64,000 nt of DNA from Paracoccaceae bacterium (GTDB lineage Bacteria; Pseudomonadota; Alphaproteobacteria; Rhodobacterales; Rhodobacteraceae), in assembly GCA_002402045.2 (NCBI GenBank), contig NVUX02000042.1, positions 1 to 64,000 of the forward strand, in the 5' to 3' direction. A program made the translations under genes and the position numbers. Below the pieces are notes generated by a model. That model had not been told where the DNA came from. It ran no database searches and saw only the letters and a list, made by a program, of their open reading frames with translations. Positions 1,103 to 57,013 of this stretch are shown here, piece by piece (positions within the stretch are counted from its first letter, which is position 1; every line of letters begins with the position of its first letter).

Positions 1103-2761
<1,659 letters not shown>

Positions 2762-2787
2762 GCTTTGCCGCTTAGCTAAAGTATTAG

Positions 2788-2813
2788 GGGTCGCCTTCGG
2801 GCGGCCCTTTTTT
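2788..2813 (+). terminator. Rho-independent terminator after groEL
   Basis: The stem GGGTCGCC (2788-2795) pairs with GGCGGCCC (2800-2807), with one G-U pair, around a TTCG tetraloop. Six T residues follow (2808-2813). It ends the groESL transcript. Confidence 0.92.
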
Positions 2814-2992
2814 GTGAGTAGGCTCTTAACGGGACTAAACTAGCATTTGTGCTACGGTTCAAATGAGCACACCAGGTTAAATCTAACTGCCACCTTATGC
2901 CGCCGGTTAGTCACCTGCGAACCCGCAGAAGCGTCTTACGCGATTTGAGATGCACCTCGCCGTACATCAAAATCAGCTCGCCACGCTCAGAC

Positions 2993-3565
2993 TTAAAGCA
3001 GGCTGAGACTATCCGCGATCTCAGTAGCGATCGCTTTAGCGTCAACACCTTCACGTTCAGCAGATACGCGAAGCCCTAATAGATCAGACTGATATCGCCG
3101 AGCGAGCACTTTCGGATCAAGTGATTTATCGACATCGCCAGCCGATTGCGCCTGTTGAAACAGCTCTGCAAACTGCGTTTCCATCTTTAACAAATGGGCG
3201 TTTGCCCGGCTAGCCAGCGGGTGGTCGCGCGCGTGCAATTCCAGCACAGTCTTGGCCAGCATACAGGCCTTCGCGGGGGCCGCGTCGTTCTCAATCGCCA
3301 TCTCGGGGAACCGCTGTAGCGCTTTGATCGGGCCAAGCTCTGCGGCCAAAATCTGCAAGCGCAGTTGGCCATCTTTCGCATACCTATCAAGGGCAAGTTC
3401 AAACAATGCATCTTTTGATCCAAAGGCCGCGTAAAAACTACCAGGTTTCATTTGCAATGCAGCCTCAAGGTTTTTGAGGGACGTTCCCGCCCAGCCTCGT
3501 CGCCAGAATAGATCGCGAGCACGATCTATCAAATCATTACGGTCGTATTCTGGTTTGCGTGGCAT
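2993..3565 (-). CDS. TetR/AcrR-family transcriptional repressor
   Basis: A 190-aa one-domain-pair repressor. Residues about 8-55 form the TetR N-terminal helix-turn-helix (DLIDRARDLFWRRGWAGTSL, then LEAALQMKPGSFYAAFGSKDALF), and the remainder is an all-helical ligand/dimer domain. I chose ATG 3565 (MPRKPEYDR) because AGGTGA precedes it and because the in-frame alternative at 3595 would begin inside the operator. The gene is divergent from a carboxymuconolactone-decarboxylase-like gene across 98 bp that hold two operator-like palindromes. It probably represses itself and that neighbour; the ligand is unknown. Confidence 0.88.
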   Translation of the reverse strand: MPRKPEYDRNDLIDRARDLFWRRGWAGTSLKNLEAALQMKPGSFYAAFGSKDALFELALDRYAKDGQLRLQILAAELGPIKALQRFPEMAIENDAAPAKACMLAKTVLELHARDHPLASRANAHLLKMETQFAELFQQAQSAGDVDKSLDPKVLARRYQSDLLGLRVSAEREGVDAKAIATEIADSLSLL

Positions 3566-48004: not shown

Positions 48005-48388
48005 TGCGGATGGCTGGATGACTGCGTGAAAGCGAGGAAAGTCCGGACTCCAGGAAGGCATGGCGCCGGTTAAGGACCGGCCGGGGTAACCCGAGGGAAA
48101 GCGCCACAGAAAATAAACCGCCAGCTAATGTCGTGGGTTCGCCTACGGCAAAACGCAGGTAAGGGTGAAACGGTGGGGTAAGAGCCCACCGCCTCGGAGG
48201 TAACTTTGAGGGCACGGCAAGCCCCGCCAGGAGCAAAGCCAAATAGGGGTCTCGCGAGGTTCGCCTCGGGTGCTTCCACCCAGAGACCCGGGTTGGCTGC
48301 TAGAGCGTATTGGTAACAATGCGCGCAGATGAATGGTCATCGAAGGGCTTTATGCCCGGAACAAAATCCGGCTTATAGGCCATCCGCA
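48005..48388 (+). ncRNA. rnpB: RNase P RNA, bacterial class A
   Basis: The catalytic RNA that matures tRNA 5' ends. The ends pair in helix P1: TGCGGATGGC (48005-48014) with GCCATCCGCA (48379-48388), ten perfect base pairs. The conserved blocks are all present: GAGGAAAGTCCGGACTC (48034-48050), GGTGAAACGGTGGGGTAAGA with AGCCCACCG after it (about 48164-48192), AGATGAATGGTCA (about 48327-48339) and ACAAAATCCGGCTTAT (48361-48376). The length of about 384 nt is usual for type A. The exact ends are set from P1. Confidence 0.97.
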
Positions 48389-48448
48389 AATACCCTTTCC
48401 AATGCACTTTCGCCGAAGCCGGTAAAATGGCATCGCAACCAAGAGCCT

Positions 48449-50034: not shown

Positions 50035-50616
50035 ATGTCCAACCTAGCAGAAACCACTGATACCGCACCCGGCGCGCTTGGCCGAAGTTTGCGTGGCCTA
50101 CGCAAAGCACGCGGAATAACACTGAAAGAGCTGGCCCTTAAAGTTGGCCGCTCTGTGGGTTTTATCAGCCAGATAGAACGCGGGATTTCAGAGCCATCCA
50201 TAACCGACCTGCGGCGCATAGCCGGCGCTTTTGAGGTGCCCACCAGCTGGTTTTTCATGTTGGAAGACATAGACACACCTGAGCAAAAATTCATTGTGCG
50301 CACAGGCGCGCGGCGGGCTTTGGGCACCTCTGAAGAGGGCATTTTAGAGGAACTGCTTTCGCCCGATCTGGGCGGGGCCTTCGAGATGTTTCGCACGGTG
50401 ATTGAGCCGGGGGCGGCGTCGTCTGAACTGCTGAAGCGCGACACTGAGGAAGCGGGCTATATCGCCGCCGGTGAAATTGATTTCTGGATTGATGAAACGC
50501 GTTTCAGCCTAAAGGCGGGAGACAGCTTTCGGTTTGACCATAAATCGCACCGTTGGCACAACAAAGGCCAAGTACAATGCGTTATTATCTGGGTTGTTAG
50601 CCCGCCGGTGTATTAG
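50035..50616 (+). CDS. XRE-family regulator with cupin domain
   Basis: A 193-aa regulator. The helix-turn-helix is at about residues 14-70 (LGRSLRGLRKARGITLKELA, VGFISQIERGISEPSITDLRRIA). A C-terminal cupin barrel is at about 115-190 (EAGYIAAGEIDFWI, LKAGDSFRFDHKSHRWHN). The PuuR-like family includes regulators of amine and amino-acid catabolism, in which the cupin is thought to bind the inducer. It is the first gene of an operon with two flavoproteins and an MttB-family enzyme (9-nt gap to the next gene) and lies right behind an inverted repeat. Confidence 0.92.
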   Translation: MSNLAETTDTAPGALGRSLRGLRKARGITLKELALKVGRSVGFISQIERGISEPSITDLRRIAGAFEVPTSWFFMLEDIDTPEQKFIVRTGARRALGTSEEGILEELLSPDLGGAFEMFRTVIEPGAASSELLKRDTEEAGYIAAGEIDFWIDETRFSLKAGDSFRFDHKSHRWHNKGQVQCVIIWVVSPPVY

Positions 50617-50625
50617 GAGCATATT

Positions 50626-53058
50626 GTGAGTTTACCACGCCATGCACGGGTTGTGATTATCGGGGGCGGGGCCATAGGAGCCTCTTGCCTGTACCACCTT
50701 GCCAAGGCCGGCTGGACCGACGCCTTGCTGCTGGAGAAAAATGAGCTGACCAGTGGCAGCACGTGGCATGCAGCGGGTAATGTTCCTACGTTTTCAATGT
50801 CTTGGTCGCTGATGAATATGCAGCGCTATTCGGTCGAGCTATACCAAGGGCTGGCAAAGGCAGTGGATTATCCGATGAATTACCACATGACGGGCAGCCT
50901 GCGCCTTGCGCATAACCGCAACCGAATGATGGAATTTGAGCGGGCCTGCGGCATGGGGCGGCATCAGGGGATGAACCTCGAAATGTGTGCGGTTTCAGAC
51001 CTGAAAGCGCGCTATCCGTTTTTGGAAACCCACGACCTCGCGGGTGGCATGTATGACCCCGCCGATGGCGATATCGACCCCTCGCAGCTTACACAAGCGC
51101 TGGCCAAAGGGGCGCGGGATATGGGGGCAAAGATCGAGCGTTTTTGCCCCGTTACCGCCGTGAGTCGGCAGGATGGCGAATGGATACTGAGCACCCCAAA
51201 GGGCAAAGTGCGGGCCGAAATCGTGGTGAATGCAGCAGGCTACCGCGCACAGGAACTCGGGCGGATGTTTATCCCGCATGGGGGCCGCGAAGTGCCGATG
51301 ATGACCATGTCGCATCAATACTTGCTAACTGACGAAATACCAGAGCTTCAAGCGTGGAGCGAAAGCGCGGGGCAAAAGCTGCCGTTGCTCCGCGATGTGG
51401 ATAGCTCCTATTATCTGCGGCAGGAAAAATTCGGGCTGAACCTTGGGCCGTATGAGGCCAACTGCAAGCCCCATTGGCAAACCCCGAGCGACCCTATGCC
51501 GGATGATTTCTCGTTTCAGCTTTATCCAGACGACCTTGAGCGGCTGGAATGGCACATGGAAGACGCGATGGCACGGGTGCCTATTTTGGGCACCGCAGGT
51601 ATTAACAAAGTCATTAACGGCCCAATTCCCTACACGCCTGATGGTAACCCGCTAATCGGCCCTATGCCCGGCGTGCCCAACGCCTTTGAGGCCTGCGTGT
51701 TTACCTTTGGCATTGCCCAAGCGGGCGGTGCGGGCAAAGTGCTGGCGGAGTGGGTAACGGAAGGCCAAACAGAGTGGGATATGTGGGCGGTGGACCCCCG
51801 CCGCTTTACCAGTTTTGCTGATCAGAGCTACACAAATGTGAAGGGCCGCGAGGTTTACGCCAATGAATATGCCATGCATTTCCCACATCATGAATGGCCA
51901 GAAGGGCGGGGCAAACGGCTTTCACAGAACCACGATAAAGTCACCGCTTTGGGCGGCGTAATGGGCGCGTATGCGGGCTGGGAGCGGGCGAATTGGTTTG
52001 CAAAATCTGGCGATGATACCCGTGAAGAAAGCACCCATACGTGGGGCCGCCAAGGCCCGTGGTTTGCCCGCGTAGCCGAAGAATGCGCGGCAGTGGCTGA
52101 GGGCGCGGGGGTGCTGGACCTCCCCGGGTTTTCCCGTTTTGAGCTGGGCGGCGCGGGGGCGGCGGCGTGGTTGAAAAGCCAAATCTCTGGTGCTTTGCCC
52201 AAAATAGGCCGAATGAACCTCGCCTATTTTGCCGACACGCGCGGGCGAATACTGACCGAAATGTCGGTCATGCGCTTTGAGGAAAATAACTTCCTTCTCA
52301 TGACCGCCGCCACGGCGGAATGGCACGATTTTGAGTTGCTGAAATCCACCCTCCCCGAGGGCCTGACCCTGCGCAACGTCACGGAGGCGTCCTCTGCTTT
52401 GATTGTCAGTGGTCCCAAAACCCGCGCACTGTTTGCAGGCATTTCTGATGCCGACCTAAGCCTCTCGTGGCTCAGCCACCAACGCACCAATGTAGCAGGC
52501 CGCCCTGCCCTTTTGGCGCGGGTATCCTTTGCAGGAGAGCTCGGCTGGGAGGTGCATGCAGCCAATGCTGATATGCCGAAAATATACGCCGCTGTGCTAG
52601 CCGCAGGGGCAAAGCCCTTTGGCATGTATGCGCTGGATAGCCTGCGGCTGGAAAAGGGATACCGGACGTGGAAAGGCGATCTTTCCAGCGATTATACTTT
52701 GCTGGAAGCGGGGCTTTCGCGCTTCATCAAGCTTGATAAAGCTGAGGATTTCCCTGGCAAAGCGGCGCTTGGTTCCGAGCCCCCCTCCAAGAAGTTTGCA
52801 ACACTCATTGTGACGGCAGGCGACCAAGACGCGCCTTATATGGCAACGGTTTGGCACGGTGATACCGTGGTTGGTGAGGTCACCTCGGGCGGTTGGGGCC
52901 ACCGAATAAACGCTTCGATTGCCCTCTGCATGCTTGGCACTGAGTGCGCAGTTGCAGGCACCAAGCTTGAGATAGAAATTTACGGCCAGCGCTACCCGGC
53001 CGAAGTACAACCCAATGGGCCGCTATATGACCCAAAAAACGAAAGGATTCGCGCATGA
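50626..53058 (+). CDS. Dimethylglycine-dehydrogenase-like flavoprotein with GcvT domain (copy 1)
   Basis: An 810-aa enzyme. The N-terminal FAD domain has IIGGGAIGAS (11-20) and the SGSTWHAAG motif, in which His48 aligns with the residue that binds FAD covalently in dimethylglycine dehydrogenase. An FAO_M-type linker follows. The C-terminal half (about 430-810) is a folate-binding GcvT domain (SFAGELGWEVH, ALDSLRLEKGYRTWKGDLS). Such enzymes oxidatively remove N-methyl groups and pass the carbon to tetrahydrofolate. The start is GTG 50626 after AGGAG. It overlaps the second copy by ATGA. Substrate inferred to be an N-methylated amino acid or betaine derivative. Confidence 0.9.
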   Translation: MSLPRHARVVIIGGGAIGASCLYHLAKAGWTDALLLEKNELTSGSTWHAAGNVPTFSMSWSLMNMQRYSVELYQGLAKAVDYPMNYHMTGSLRLAHNRNRMMEFERACGMGRHQGMNLEMCAVSDLKARYPFLETHDLAGGMYDPADGDIDPSQLTQALAKGARDMGAKIERFCPVTAVSRQDGEWILSTPKGKVRAEIVVNAAGYRAQELGRMFIPHGGREVPMMTMSHQYLLTDEIPELQAWSESAGQKLPLLRDVDSSYYLRQEKFGLNLGPYEANCKPHWQTPSDPMPDDFSFQLYPDDLERLEWHMEDAMARVPILGTAGINKVINGPIPYTPDGNPLIGPMPGVPNAFEACVFTFGIAQAGGAGKVLAEWVTEGQTEWDMWAVDPRRFTSFADQSYTNVKGREVYANEYAMHFPHHEWPEGRGKRLSQNHDKVTALGGVMGAYAGWERANWFAKSGDDTREESTHTWGRQGPWFARVAEECAAVAEGAGVLDLPGFSRFELGGAGAAAWLKSQISGALPKIGRMNLAYFADTRGRILTEMSVMRFEENNFLLMTAATAEWHDFELLKSTLPEGLTLRNVTEASSALIVSGPKTRALFAGISDADLSLSWLSHQRTNVAGRPALLARVSFAGELGWEVHAANADMPKIYAAVLAAGAKPFGMYALDSLRLEKGYRTWKGDLSSDYTLLEAGLSRFIKLDKAEDFPGKAALGSEPPSKKFATLIVTAGDQDAPYMATVWHGDTVVGEVTSGGWGHRINASIALCMLGTECAVAGTKLEIEIYGQRYPAEVQPNGPLYDPKNERIRA

Positions 53059-55481
53059 AAACGCTTCCAAAGCACGCTCGTGCTGTCATTATTGGCGGCG
53101 GCGTGGCCGGCGCTAGCGTGGCATACCACCTCGCCAATTTGGGCTGGACAGATGTGGTGTTGCTGGAGCGCAAGCAGCTCACCTCCGGCACCACGTGGCA
53201 CGCCGCGGGGCTTATTGGCCAGCTGCGCGCGTCCTCAAACATGACCCGCTTAGCGAAGTATTCGGCTGAGCTTTATCAAGGGCTGGAAGCCGAAACGGGC
53301 GTGGCTACGGGCTTGCGGCAAACCGGCTCGATTACGGTCGCGCTCACGGAAGCGCGGCTAGAGGAGCTTTACCGGCAGGCCTCTATGGCGCGGGCATTTG
53401 GCGTGCCGGTGGAGGAAATTTCGGCCACGGAAGTGAAAGCGCGCTATGAGCATTTGAATATCGACGGCGTGCTGGGCGCGGTTTATTTGCCGACAGATGG
53501 ACAGGGTGACCCCGCAAATATTGCGCTGGCCATGGCCAAGGGCGCGCGGCAGATGGGGGCGCATATTTTTGAAAATGTGAAGGTTTTGGATATTAGGACA
53601 GCCAACGGCCGCGTAGCATCAGTGCTGACAGATCAAGGTGAAATCACCTGTGACCACGTGGTGAATTGCGCCGGTATGTGGGGCCGTGAGGTGGGCGCGA
53701 TGGCGGGGGTTACCGTGCCGCTACACGCCTGTGAACATTTTTACATTGTCACCGAGGCCATTGATAACCTTGGGAAACTCCCCGTACTGCGGGTGCCTGA
53801 CGAGTGCGCGTATTACAAGGAGGACGCGGGTAAAATACTGCTCGGGGCGTTTGAGCCAGTGGCCAAACCGTGGGGCATGAACGGCATTCCGGAGGATTTT
53901 GAGTTTGACCAACTGCCCGAGGATTTTGACCATTTTGAGCCAATTCTGGAAAAGGCGATTAACCGGATGCCGCTGCTGGCGGAGGCTGGAATTCACACGT
54001 TTTTTAACGGGCCAGAGAGCTTTACGCCGGATGATCGGTATTACCTCGGCGAAGCGCCCGAGGTTGGTAATTTTTGGGTGTGCGCGGGGTTTAACTCGGT
54101 TGGTATCCAGTCTGCTGGTGGTGCGGGCATGGCGCTTGCGCAGTGGATGGAAGACGGCCAACCGCCGTTTGATTTGTGGGATGTCGATATCCGCCGCGCC
54201 CAGCCATTCCAGCGCAACCGGCGCTATTTGAGAGAGCGCGTAACCGAGACGCTAGGGCTGCTTTACGCCGATCACTACCCCTATCGCCAAATGGAAACGG
54301 CGCGGGGGGTGCGGCGCTCTCCGGTGCATGAAATCTTGAAAGAGCGCGGTGCGGTGTTTGGGGAAATGGCGGGCTGGGAGCGGGCGAACTGGTTTGCCAA
54401 TGAAGGCCAGAAGCGAGAATACGAATATAGCTGGGGGCGGCAAAATTGGTTTGAAAACCAGCGCGCCGAGCATATGGCTGTGCGCGAAGGCGTGGGCGTG
54501 TTTGACATGACAAGCTTTGGTAAAATTCGCGTAGAGGGCCGCGATGCGCTGGCCTTTATGCAACGGGTGTGTGCCAACCAGATGGACGTGGCCACTGGCC
54601 GAATTGTGTATACCCAAATGCTGAACCCGCGCGGCGGGATAGAGTGCGACCTGACGGTGACGCGGCTTTCTGAAACCGCCTTTTTGCTGGTGGTGCCGGG
54701 GGCAACTTTGCAGCGGGATTTGGCATGGCTGCGGCGGCATTTTGCAGATGAGTTTGTGGTGATAACCGACATAACCGCTGGCGAGGCCGTTTTTGCCGTG
54801 ATGGGGCCAGACAGCCGCGCGCTTTTGCAAAAAATCAGCCCAGCGGATTTCAGCAACGCGGCCCATCCGTTTGGCACGATGCGGGAGATCGAGATAGGCC
54901 TCGGCATCGCCCGCGCCCACCGCGTTACGTATGTTGGCGAACTGGGCTGGGAGATTTATGCCAGCACCGACCAAGCCGCGCATATCTTTGAGGAAATTCT
55001 GGGTGCGGGGGCCACACCCTGCGGGCTGCACGCGCTGGATAGCTGCCGGCTGGAAAAGGGATATCGCCATTTTGGCCATGATATTACGGATGAGGATCAC
55101 GTGTTGGAAGCCGGTCTTGGCTTTGCCGTAAAGCCCGACAAAGGCGATTTTATTGGCCGCGAAGCCGTGCTGGAAAAGCGCGAAACCGGCCTTACCCGCC
55201 GCCTTGTGCAGTTCAAACTAAACGACCCCGAGCCGATGCTTTACCACAACGAGCCCATCTTGCGGGATGGCAAAATTGTGGGCCACCTGAGCTCGGGCGG
55301 CTACGGCCATGCGCTGGGGGCGAGCATCGGGCTGGGCTATGTGCCGAGCCAAGAGCAAAGCGCGGCAGACGTGCTGGCCTCAAGTTATGAAATCGAAATC
55401 GCGGGGGCGCGCTTTAAAGCCACCGCCAGCCTTAAGCCACTGTATGACCCGACATCGGCGCGGGTAAAGGAGGACGGATGA
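53055..55481 (+). CDS. Dimethylglycine-dehydrogenase-like flavoprotein with GcvT domain (copy 2)
   Basis: An 808-aa paralogue of the preceding enzyme with the same layout. The FAD motif is IIGGGVAGAS (12-21) and the covalent-FAD His49 is in SGTTWHAAG. The GcvT half has TYVGELGWEIY and ALDSCRLEKGYRHFGHDIT. The two copies differ clearly along their length (for example VPTFSMSWSLMNMQRYS against IGQLRASSNMTRLAKYS near the active site), so they probably act on different substrates or successive methyl groups. It overlaps the MttB-like gene by ATGA, so all three enzymes are coupled. Confidence 0.9.
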   Translation: MKTLPKHARAVIIGGGVAGASVAYHLANLGWTDVVLLERKQLTSGTTWHAAGLIGQLRASSNMTRLAKYSAELYQGLEAETGVATGLRQTGSITVALTEARLEELYRQASMARAFGVPVEEISATEVKARYEHLNIDGVLGAVYLPTDGQGDPANIALAMAKGARQMGAHIFENVKVLDIRTANGRVASVLTDQGEITCDHVVNCAGMWGREVGAMAGVTVPLHACEHFYIVTEAIDNLGKLPVLRVPDECAYYKEDAGKILLGAFEPVAKPWGMNGIPEDFEFDQLPEDFDHFEPILEKAINRMPLLAEAGIHTFFNGPESFTPDDRYYLGEAPEVGNFWVCAGFNSVGIQSAGGAGMALAQWMEDGQPPFDLWDVDIRRAQPFQRNRRYLRERVTETLGLLYADHYPYRQMETARGVRRSPVHEILKERGAVFGEMAGWERANWFANEGQKREYEYSWGRQNWFENQRAEHMAVREGVGVFDMTSFGKIRVEGRDALAFMQRVCANQMDVATGRIVYTQMLNPRGGIECDLTVTRLSETAFLLVVPGATLQRDLAWLRRHFADEFVVITDITAGEAVFAVMGPDSRALLQKISPADFSNAAHPFGTMREIEIGLGIARAHRVTYVGELGWEIYASTDQAAHIFEEILGAGATPCGLHALDSCRLEKGYRHFGHDITDEDHVLEAGLGFAVKPDKGDFIGREAVLEKRETGLTRRLVQFKLNDPEPMLYHNEPILRDGKIVGHLSSGGYGHALGASIGLGYVPSQEQSAADVLASSYEIEIAGARFKATASLKPLYDPTSARVKEDG

Positions 55482-57013
55482 ATAAACGGTCTGGTGGGCG
55501 GCAAGCCCGTAGAAAACTGCGCGCGGCACCGCTTGAAGTGAAGCCGGTATATGCCGGGCTGGAGGGCGGGCAATATAGGCCGCTTTCCGAGAATGACATG
55601 GCACAAATTCATGCGGCGGCGTTAGAGGCGCTAGAGACCATCGGGCTAAACGAGGTGACGGATACAGCGGCGGCATATTGCACCAAAGCGGGCGCCGAGC
55701 TGCGGGATGGGCGGCTTTATTTTCCGCCCGCGCTGGTAGAGGCCGCCATCAAATCTGCCAACCGCGATTTTAAGCTTTATGGCCGCGACCCAAAGCATGA
55801 TCTGCACCCGGTTGGCCACAAGGTCCACTTTGGCACGGCGGGCGCGGCGGTGCATATTGTGGATGTTGAAAACAACGAATATCGCGATAGCACGTTGCTA
55901 GATCTCTATAATGCCGCCCGCATAACAGACCTGCAAGACAACGTGCATTTCTTCCAGCGCCCGATGGTGGCGCGGGATATGGAAACCACGCTCGACCTTG
56001 ATTTGAATACGCTTTACGCCAGCTTGGCGGGCACTAACAAGCATGTGGGCACCTCGGTAACCGTGCCGGAAAACACGGCGCCCTTTCTGGAAATGCTCTA
56101 TATGGTGGCGGGCGGAGAGGCGGCCTACCGCGCCCGCCCTTTTGTGAGCGCTTCCGTGTGTTTTGTGGTGCCGCCCATGCGGTTTGCGCAGGATGCGTGC
56201 GATATTATGGAGAGCCTTGTAAAAGGCGGCGTGCCGATTTTACTGCTGTCTGCCGGGCAAGCGGGGGCGACTTCACCCGCCGCTATTGCGGGCTCGGTAG
56301 TGCAGTCGGTGGCCGAAGTTTTGGCGGGGCTGATCTATGTAAATGCAATTTCACCGGGGCACCCCGCGATTTTTGGCACATGGCCGTTTGTGTCTGATCT
56401 GCGCACGGGGGCGATGTCTGGTGGCTCGGGCGAGCAGGCTTTGCTGAGTGCCGCCGTAAGCCAGATGGCGCGGTTTTATGACCTGCCATCGGGCTCGGCG
56501 GCGGGGATGAGTGATAGCAAAATGCCCGATATTCAGGCGGGTTATGAAAAGGGGATTACCACCACAATGGCAGGGCTTTCGGGCCTTAATATGGTGTATG
56601 AGGCCGCCGGAATGCACGGGTCGTTAATGGGGTTTTGCTTTGAAAGCCTGATCATTGATAATGATATGCTGGGGCAAGTGCTGCGCACCATTCGCGGAAT
56701 CGAGATTAATGAAGATACACTAAGCTTGGACACCATGCGCGCGGTCTGTCTGGGCGGGCCAGCGCATTACCTTGGCACCGAGCAAACTCTGCGCCTTATG
56801 CAAACAGAATATGTTTACCCCGAGATCGCCAGCCGCCTTAGCCCTAAGGAATGGGCGGAGATGCAAAAACCCGCGATCGTGGCCGAAGCCGGCAAACGGA
56901 AAGACCAGATTTTGGCCAGCCATTTCCCGAGCTACATTCCTGAAGACATTGACGAAGCCCTGCGCGAGCGGTTCAACATTTGCCTTCCGAAATCGGCGAT
57001 GCGTGCGCGGTAG
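55478..57013 (+). CDS. MttB-superfamily methyltransferase without pyrrolysine
   Basis: A 511-aa TIM-barrel protein of the trimethylamine methyltransferase superfamily. Signatures include SENDMAQIHAAALEALETIGL (about 37-57), LDLYNAARITDLQDNVHFFQRP (about 140-161) and the C-terminal DEALRERFNI. The frame contains no in-frame amber codon, so it is of the non-pyrrolysine type, like the glycine betaine methyltransferase MtgB and the proline betaine enzyme MtpB. Those transfer a methyl group to a corrinoid protein; no corrinoid protein is encoded nearby. Coupling to two demethylating flavoproteins suggests quaternary-amine demethylation. The substrate is not determined. Confidence 0.9.
   Translation: MNKRSGGRQARRKLRAAPLEVKPVYAGLEGGQYRPLSENDMAQIHAAALEALETIGLNEVTDTAAAYCTKAGAELRDGRLYFPPALVEAAIKSANRDFKLYGRDPKHDLHPVGHKVHFGTAGAAVHIVDVENNEYRDSTLLDLYNAARITDLQDNVHFFQRPMVARDMETTLDLDLNTLYASLAGTNKHVGTSVTVPENTAPFLEMLYMVAGGEAAYRARPFVSASVCFVVPPMRFAQDACDIMESLVKGGVPILLLSAGQAGATSPAAIAGSVVQSVAEVLAGLIYVNAISPGHPAIFGTWPFVSDLRTGAMSGGSGEQALLSAAVSQMARFYDLPSGSAAGMSDSKMPDIQAGYEKGITTTMAGLSGLNMVYEAAGMHGSLMGFCFESLIIDNDMLGQVLRTIRGIEINEDTLSLDTMRAVCLGGPAHYLGTEQTLRLMQTEYVYPEIASRLSPKEWAEMQKPAIVAEAGKRKDQILASHFPSYIPEDIDEALRERFNICLPKSAMRAR

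Follow-up and report, generated by a model that had tools for sequence, protein, structure and literature searches.

We analysed a 64,000-nucleotide stretch (hereafter the window) from the genome of a Paracoccaceae bacterium (NCBI assembly GCA_002402045.2, contig NVUX02000042.1, forward strand). An operon on its + strand (50035-57013) encodes, in this order, an XRE-cupin regulator, two distinct flavoproteins resembling dimethylglycine dehydrogenase (DMGDH), here called FAD1 and FAD2, and a methyltransferase of the MttB superfamily without pyrrolysine. We propose that this operon strips all three N-methyl groups from one quaternary amine, the first of them by way of MtgC, a corrinoid protein encoded elsewhere in the genome, and that taurine betaine (N,N,N-trimethyltaurine) is its most likely substrate; taken as a whole, we give this reading a little less than an even chance. 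An earlier note on this DNA, made from the letters alone, had recognised the four genes and suggested a stepwise pathway, in which MttB takes the first methyl group and the flavoproteins the next two. Coordinates and Pfam domains confirm the gene set, and the proposed sequence of steps is compatible with the conserved trio described below. The MtgC hub was already known, and the assignment of taurine betaine is the new part.

The MttB enzyme and its probable corrinoid partner

The methyltransferase gene (55478..57013, +) is a single open frame without internal stop, and its product matches profile positions 1-490 of 500 of PF06253 at 388.7 bits (cut-off 25), which makes it a member of the superfamily. 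With 372.3 bits against TIGR02369, the equivalog model for the true (trimethylamine) MttB, it stays below the cut-off of 525 and falls outside that group. Met344 aligns with the pyrrolysine of the solved MttB 7xcl, in agreement with the earlier observation that the gene has no amber codon. The earlier grouping of the enzyme with MtgB/MtpB-like proteins rather than with true MttB is not supported: it scores nearly equally to MtgB (9yce; 216.4 bits) and to the pyrrolysine MttB (7xcl; 214.5 bits), and the MtgB-like enzymes of this genome are the other two of its three PF06253 genes (contigs C122 and C12; labels of contigs, genomes and loci are our own), which reach 402.7 and 370.9 bits to MtgB compared with 136.5 and 99.7 bits to MttB and have 4yyc as their best match. 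The window MttB looks like a subfamily of its own, and we propose, on the basis of its sequence, that it is a quaternary amine:corrinoid methyltransferase. The Rfam model PYLIS_3, the pyrrolysine insertion sequence of mttB, matches 56507-56606 on the + strand (61.7 bits, gathering threshold 38) and begins exactly at the Met344 codon; no amber codon is present, and the model appears to score coding homology of mttB. The MtgB-like gene on C12 (L010 9764-14621) is followed by a mandelate-racemase-type enolase and an old-yellow-enzyme-type flavoprotein, a set which we take to resemble proline betaine catabolism.

The whole genome consists of 122 contigs, for which the tool estimates 100% completeness and 2.58% contamination, and a search through it matched B12-binding domains on C46, C43 and C37 only; the contig of the window (C1) gave none. 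C46 alone combines a B12-binding domain, in a short open frame, with B12-binding_2, and thus holds the single MtgC-like stand-alone protein found in the genome, adjoined by a homocysteine methyltransferase resembling MtgE and by a gene for a DUF1638 protein. Contig C80 brings together genes for an activator like RACo/RamA, for a pterin-binding methyltransferase like MtgD and for a protein named by eye as MetF-like, so that the genome contains, besides the stand-alone corrinoid protein, both a methyltransferase that binds pterin and a reductive activator. The corrinoid protein of C46 scores below the curated NCBIfam cut-offs for MtgC (191.9 of 370 and 167.1 of 310). In 2025, an MtgC hub was described in Ruegeria pomeroyi that takes the first methyl group of glycine betaine (Mausz et al., PMC12478193); mutants in mtgC or mtgD are reported there to be unable either to make methionine or to use glycine betaine, and other methylated compounds are suggested by the authors as substrates of additional PF06253 paralogues. 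The combined gene set of C46 and C80 matches the hub as it is presented in that paper. This hub provides a precedent for a corrinoid protein encoded at a distance, and the earlier statement that no corrinoid acceptor is encoded holds for the operon only. The genome search for MtgC-like proteins that the note had suggested returned one stand-alone protein together with MtgD-, MtgE-, RamA- and DUF1638-like genes, and its idea of a distant corrinoid protein as methyl acceptor is in keeping with both the genome and the published description (PMC12478193).

In the proposed mechanism, MttB would move the first N-methyl group to the cob(I)alamin of the distant MtgC, from which MtgD would pass it on to tetrahydrofolate or MtgE to homocysteine, and RamA, perhaps with DUF1638, would re-reduce MtgC. 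Like MtgBCD with the split methionine synthase in R. pomeroyi and Phaeobacter inhibens, as outlined in PMC12478193, this would be a PF06253 enzyme feeding a shared stand-alone corrinoid protein, and the MtgC-, MtgD-, MtgE-, RamA- and DUF1638-like genes of that system also occur in the window genome; in contrast to it, the window MttB is not an MtgB-like paralogue and is operonic with two DMGDH-like demethylases. With the pyrrolysine MttB of methanogens and with MtgB, MtpB, MtcB and MtyB of anaerobes it shares the PF06253 family, from which transfer of a methyl group from a quaternary or tertiary amine to a corrinoid is expected, but compared with these enzymes (the sequences compared were MttB and MtgB) it has Met at the pyrrolysine position and no corrinoid gene in its operon.

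The two flavoproteins

FAD1 (50626..53058, +) and FAD2 (53055..55481, +) are 37% identical, and each contains DAO, FAO_M, GCV_T and GCV_T_C above the Pfam cut-offs. The best solved relative of FAD1 is DMGDH (4pab; 547.9 bits), and FAD2 reaches 473.9 bits to DMGDH and 402.3 bits to dimethylglycine oxidase. The covalent-FAD histidine is kept in 58/58 aligned rows, window counted, for the STWHAAG motif of FAD1 (His48) and in 52 of the 53 rows for the TTWHAAG motif of FAD2 (His49), the remaining row having a gap there; with the four domains, this places both proteins among the DMGDH-like folate-linked N-demethylases and upholds the motifs and GcvT halves described earlier. Glu545 of FAD1 is identical in all 58 rows, and the matching place in FAD2 is taken by Asp532 in 53/53. 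A loss of the folate catalytic acid in FAD1 was considered and ruled out, since the Glu found in every row stands there in the solved DMGDH of the same alignment as well. The three enzyme genes are joined by ATGA stop/start overlaps on the + strand, as had been claimed, two in number (FAD1/FAD2 at 53055-53058 and FAD2/MttB at 55478-55481).

From these features, we propose that FAD1 is a tertiary-amine (dimethyl) demethylase and FAD2 a secondary-amine (monomethyl) demethylase: FAD1 would oxidise the dimethyl product left by MttB and FAD2 would then oxidise the monomethyl product, with each C1 unit passing to folate as methylene-tetrahydrofolate. Domain order, covalent-FAD His motif and folate-binding half are those of dimethylglycine dehydrogenase and oxidase, whereas the window has two distinct paralogues, proposed here for two successive amines of a sulfonate.

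Conservation of the trio

We surveyed 289 alphaproteobacterial genomes, one identical draw being assumed for all counts since genome labels and totals agree. Orthologues of FAD1, delimited where identities drop from 51% to 45% without intermediates (three best candidates per genome scored), are present in 28 genomes including that of the window, and this MttB, accepted where the best match of a genome had at least 52% identity, is present in 32. All FAD1 genomes except one (G104) carry this MttB (27/28), and in four of the genomes (G131, G018, G281 and G212) the two genes co-occur though they lie far apart or on separate contigs. MtgC (at least 70% identity) was found in 62 genomes, among them 31 of the 32 with this MttB; the one without it is G147, a 93% complete genome, whose congener G228 has MtgC. 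At the 27 FAD1-anchored loci of this draw, a same-strand FAD2 no more than 1.5 kb away is seen in 21 and this MttB within 8 kb in 17, both more often than chance would give, and an XRE homologue within 2.5 kb in nine. Pooled over all sources (57 FAD1 loci), the counts are 48 for FAD2, 40 for MttB, 25 for XRE (within 2.5 kb, same strand) and seven for LysR, the MttB figure being biased because 21 of the 57 loci were found through MttB, unlike the 27 FAD1-anchored ones. Locus counts were taken from tblastn, as greedy ORF picking missed genes in GC-rich loci, and they leave out FAD1 matches shorter than 1900 bases or below 47% identity, and with them L206 (FAD1 in two pieces) and partial loci. 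Both flavoproteins were present in 20 of the best 80 MttB loci, and a large clade without flavoproteins consists mostly of Rhodobacterales. Many Rhodobacterales loci have an aminotransferase gene next to MttB; it was dropped as evidence, because other gene clusters are equally conserved there.

Judged by this pattern of conserved sequences, FAD1, FAD2 and MttB are a functional trio, and the trio probably acts on one quaternary amine via MtgC. On two plasmids, one of Neorhizobium and one of Rhizobium, FAD1-FAD2 is followed by a GbcA-related Rieske oxygenase (257 and 255.8 of 670 bits), and the stretch fetched showed no MttB; a Rieske oxygenase in place of MttB is as expected if the first step demethylates a quaternary amine and the flavoprotein pair does the remainder.

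Taurine betaine as candidate substrate

N,N,N-trimethyltaurine fits the trio because three N-demethylases match its three methyl groups, and gene neighbourhoods in relatives point in the same direction. Two loci (L017 and L029) hold, in this order, XRE, FAD1, TauCBA-like genes, MttB, Xsc (sulfoacetaldehyde acetyltransferase), a MocR-type regulator and FAD2 within ~15 kb. The Xsc of L017 reaches 968.2 bits (cut-off 676.4) and the TauA-like protein there 174.2 bits (cut-off 304.25), which makes the latter a non-canonical relative of the taurine binding protein. In G093, which belongs to a clade of SAR116 rows in the FAD1 tree, TauABC-like genes and MttB stand together on one strand, and FAD1, FAD2, Pta, Xsc and an AptA-type aminotransferase follow on the same contig ~8 to 17 kb beyond TauA. 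Paracoccus seriniphilus has XRE, TauABC-like genes, a cupin, FAD1, FAD2, EtfBA, FolD and PurU and then Xsc on the opposite strand, with no MttB in that stretch. Furthermore, a TauC-like gene adjoins MttB in L050, and TauBC-like genes (44% and 53%) lie ~6 kb from MttB in L192. The Xsc-linked FAD1 sequences come from four loci spread over three clades of the FAD1 tree (a quick tree), and one of them lies inside the 29-row clade that contains the window (SH-aLRT 100).

The window genome itself has an Xsc of the taurine pathway on contig C120 (937.9 bits, cut-off 676.4). Across the survey, Xsc exceeds its cut-off in 39/289 genomes, 24/28 with FAD1 and 15/261 without (p ~6e-21), and among genomes with MtgC the corresponding values are 23/27 and 7/35 (p=4e-7). 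Ectoine EutD (E at most 1e-100), which served as a lifestyle control for osmolyte eaters, shows no such difference among MtgC genomes (17/27 vs 18/35, p=0.44; 9/27 vs 9/35 with EutD over its cut-off). Taurine and its tri-, di- and monomethyl derivatives are reported from the red alga Galaxaura rugosa by NMR (PMC10538540), and PMC5557254 cites a high concentration of taurine betaine in Madracis corals. Taurine, as end product of the demethylations, would be deaminated to sulfoacetaldehyde, which Xsc would convert to acetyl phosphate and sulfite. Compared with taurine dissimilation via Xsc, which is represented by Xsc in the window genome and by Xsc interleaved with or near homologous genes elsewhere, the pathway would add three demethylation steps before taurine, and the window genome differs in having no TauA orthologue.

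The earlier note had considered one betaine-type compound and named no substrate; what surrounds the homologous genes in relatives suggests N-methylated taurine, a compound outside those listed for testing in the note. We place taurine betaine first among the candidate substrates, with about an even chance of being the right one. It is with somewhat less than even confidence that we suggest a B12-dependent pathway of presumably aerobic bacteria for the full demethylation of taurine betaine. It would join sulfonate catabolism by Xsc and the pair of DMGDH-like flavoproteins to a dedicated MttB that feeds the shared MtgC/methionine synthase hub; some Rhizobiaceae have apparently exchanged the B12 step for a Rieske oxygenase before the same pair.

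Several observations weigh against taurine betaine. Four genomes (G081, G242, G283 and G179) have FAD1 and MttB without Xsc, and the link to Xsc is weak when the MtgC-bearing genomes are collapsed to families (11/14 vs 6/19, p=0.013). Since the EutD control also associates with FAD1 over all 289 genomes (18/28 vs 26/261, p ~3e-10), lifestyle explains part of the raw co-occurrence with Xsc; Xsc and EutD come apart only when genomes with MtgC are compared, and the relatives in that comparison are not independent. For the TauA-like importer, the window genome offers no orthologue (26% at best, E 1e-7), and its Xsc is unlinked to the operon, on another contig. Xsc lies within 12 kb in only 4/57 FAD1 loci, and in the 289-genome draw in G093 alone (1/28 FAD1 genomes, no better than chance); over all loci, about 0.6 would be expected by a rough hand estimate against the four seen, which come from three lineages. 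In G093 the TauABC-MttB block and the FAD1-Xsc block are separated by housekeeping genes, and our confidence is slightly lowered by these unrelated genes. A plasmid survey, which covered 10 loci out of 15 records with FAD1, revealed four loci that pair FAD1-FAD2 with AptA, an ABC transporter, ETF, FolD and PurU and show neither MttB nor Xsc in the stretch fetched, and two with the GbcA-related Rieske oxygenase, again with no MttB in what was fetched. Finally, the pathway does not explain the homocysteine-methyltransferase-like genes in 7/57 and the PEP-mutase-like genes in 6/57 FAD1 loci. The trio may thus represent a family with several substrates, differing between lineages.

Alternative explanations

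The same three-step MtgC mechanism could act on a carboxylate betaine such as beta-alanine betaine, or on a substrate that depends on the lineage, which we regard as rather unlikely. The omega-aminotransferase AptA follows FAD1-FAD2 in plasmids of Agrobacterium vitis, A. tumefaciens, Rhizobium leguminosarum and Sinorhizobium fredii NGR234 (two members were scanned and gave 713.8 and 714.7 bits, cut-off 500; the remaining pair was recognised by identities of 90% and 86%), the ABC binding protein of these plasmids matches no NCBIfam model, and no Xsc was seen in the stretch fetched; the four FAD1 genomes without Xsc and the lack of a TauA orthologue in the window genome also speak for this reading. 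However, a carboxylate betaine leaves unexplained both the Xsc and TauABC-like genes in clusters of three clades and the enrichment of Xsc with a flat ectoine control among MtgC genomes, and the AptA-type enzyme occurs together with Xsc in G093, so that AptA may serve taurine too.

The operon is probably not a second glycine betaine route, in which MttB would yield dimethylglycine, FAD1 sarcosine and FAD2 glycine. The closest solved protein of FAD1 is indeed DMGDH, and the Neorhizobium pair adjoins the GbcA-related Rieske oxygenase with carnitine genes nearby. This Rieske protein, however, attains 257 of the 670 bits required for GbcA, the window MttB is no nearer to MtgB than to MttB, and the window genome has two other, MtgB-like paralogues and, on C32, two further DMGDH-like genes next to an ABC transporter of the OpuAC/ProV/ProW type; we consider this route improbable. 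A homocysteine-methyltransferase-like gene within 4 kb of FAD1 in 7/57 loci speaks for a reading in which MttB bypasses MtgC and uses another acceptor (homocysteine or folate directly). This gene could, however, itself be an MtgE-like module receiving its methyl group from MtgC, and MtgC accompanies this MttB in all genomes but the 93% complete one whose congener has it; we consider such a bypass very improbable.

Regulator, related loci and neighbouring features

The first gene of the operon (50035..50616, +) encodes an XRE-family protein (HTH_3, 52 bits) with a C-terminal cupin domain (Cupin_2, 47.5 bits), probably the ligand-sensing regulator of the operon. It takes no part in the overlaps: FAD1 has a GTG start, preceded by AGGAG, 9 bases past the XRE stop. 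In the closest relative (L013; MttB 92%), a zinc-type quinone-oxidoreductase-like gene (2375-3421) is inserted between FAD1 and FAD2, and the window has no such insert. A homocysteine S-methyltransferase-like gene is found near FAD1 and FAD2 in seven loci (L014, L016, L022, L024, L149, L156 and L158), perhaps as a dedicated methyl outlet to methionine.

The megaplasmid of R. pomeroyi (L200 9992-19312) carries an MttB (47%), a class III aminotransferase, two DMGDH-like flavoproteins and a TPP enzyme related to Xsc (393.9 of 676.4 bits), a set which suggests that a different methylated amine is degraded by a sister pathway. TauABC-like transporters near other DMGDH-like or MttB (43%) genes occur in L208 (2891-16441), L199 and L202; L208 and L199 also hold D-cysteine desulfhydrase, racemase and hisD-annotated genes, and loci of their type are perhaps involved with N-methylated C3 sulfonates. 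Upstream of the operon, the window contains a bacterial RNase P RNA of class A (48006-48391, +; 302.5 bits).

Significance

Among the matches listed in a literature search, no titles or abstract openings report bacterial genes that degrade taurine betaine or its di- or monomethyl relatives, and a search on MttB with DMGDH in Roseobacter gave no match. The operon would bring together a known hub and known enzyme families in a new combination, for which we infer catalysis, partner binding and regulation. If the proposal is true, a substrate would be known for one PF06253 paralogue among the many that marine bacteria carry, a sulfonate osmolyte would be tied to vitamin B12 and methionine metabolism, and marker genes would be supplied for the release of sulfur and nitrogen.

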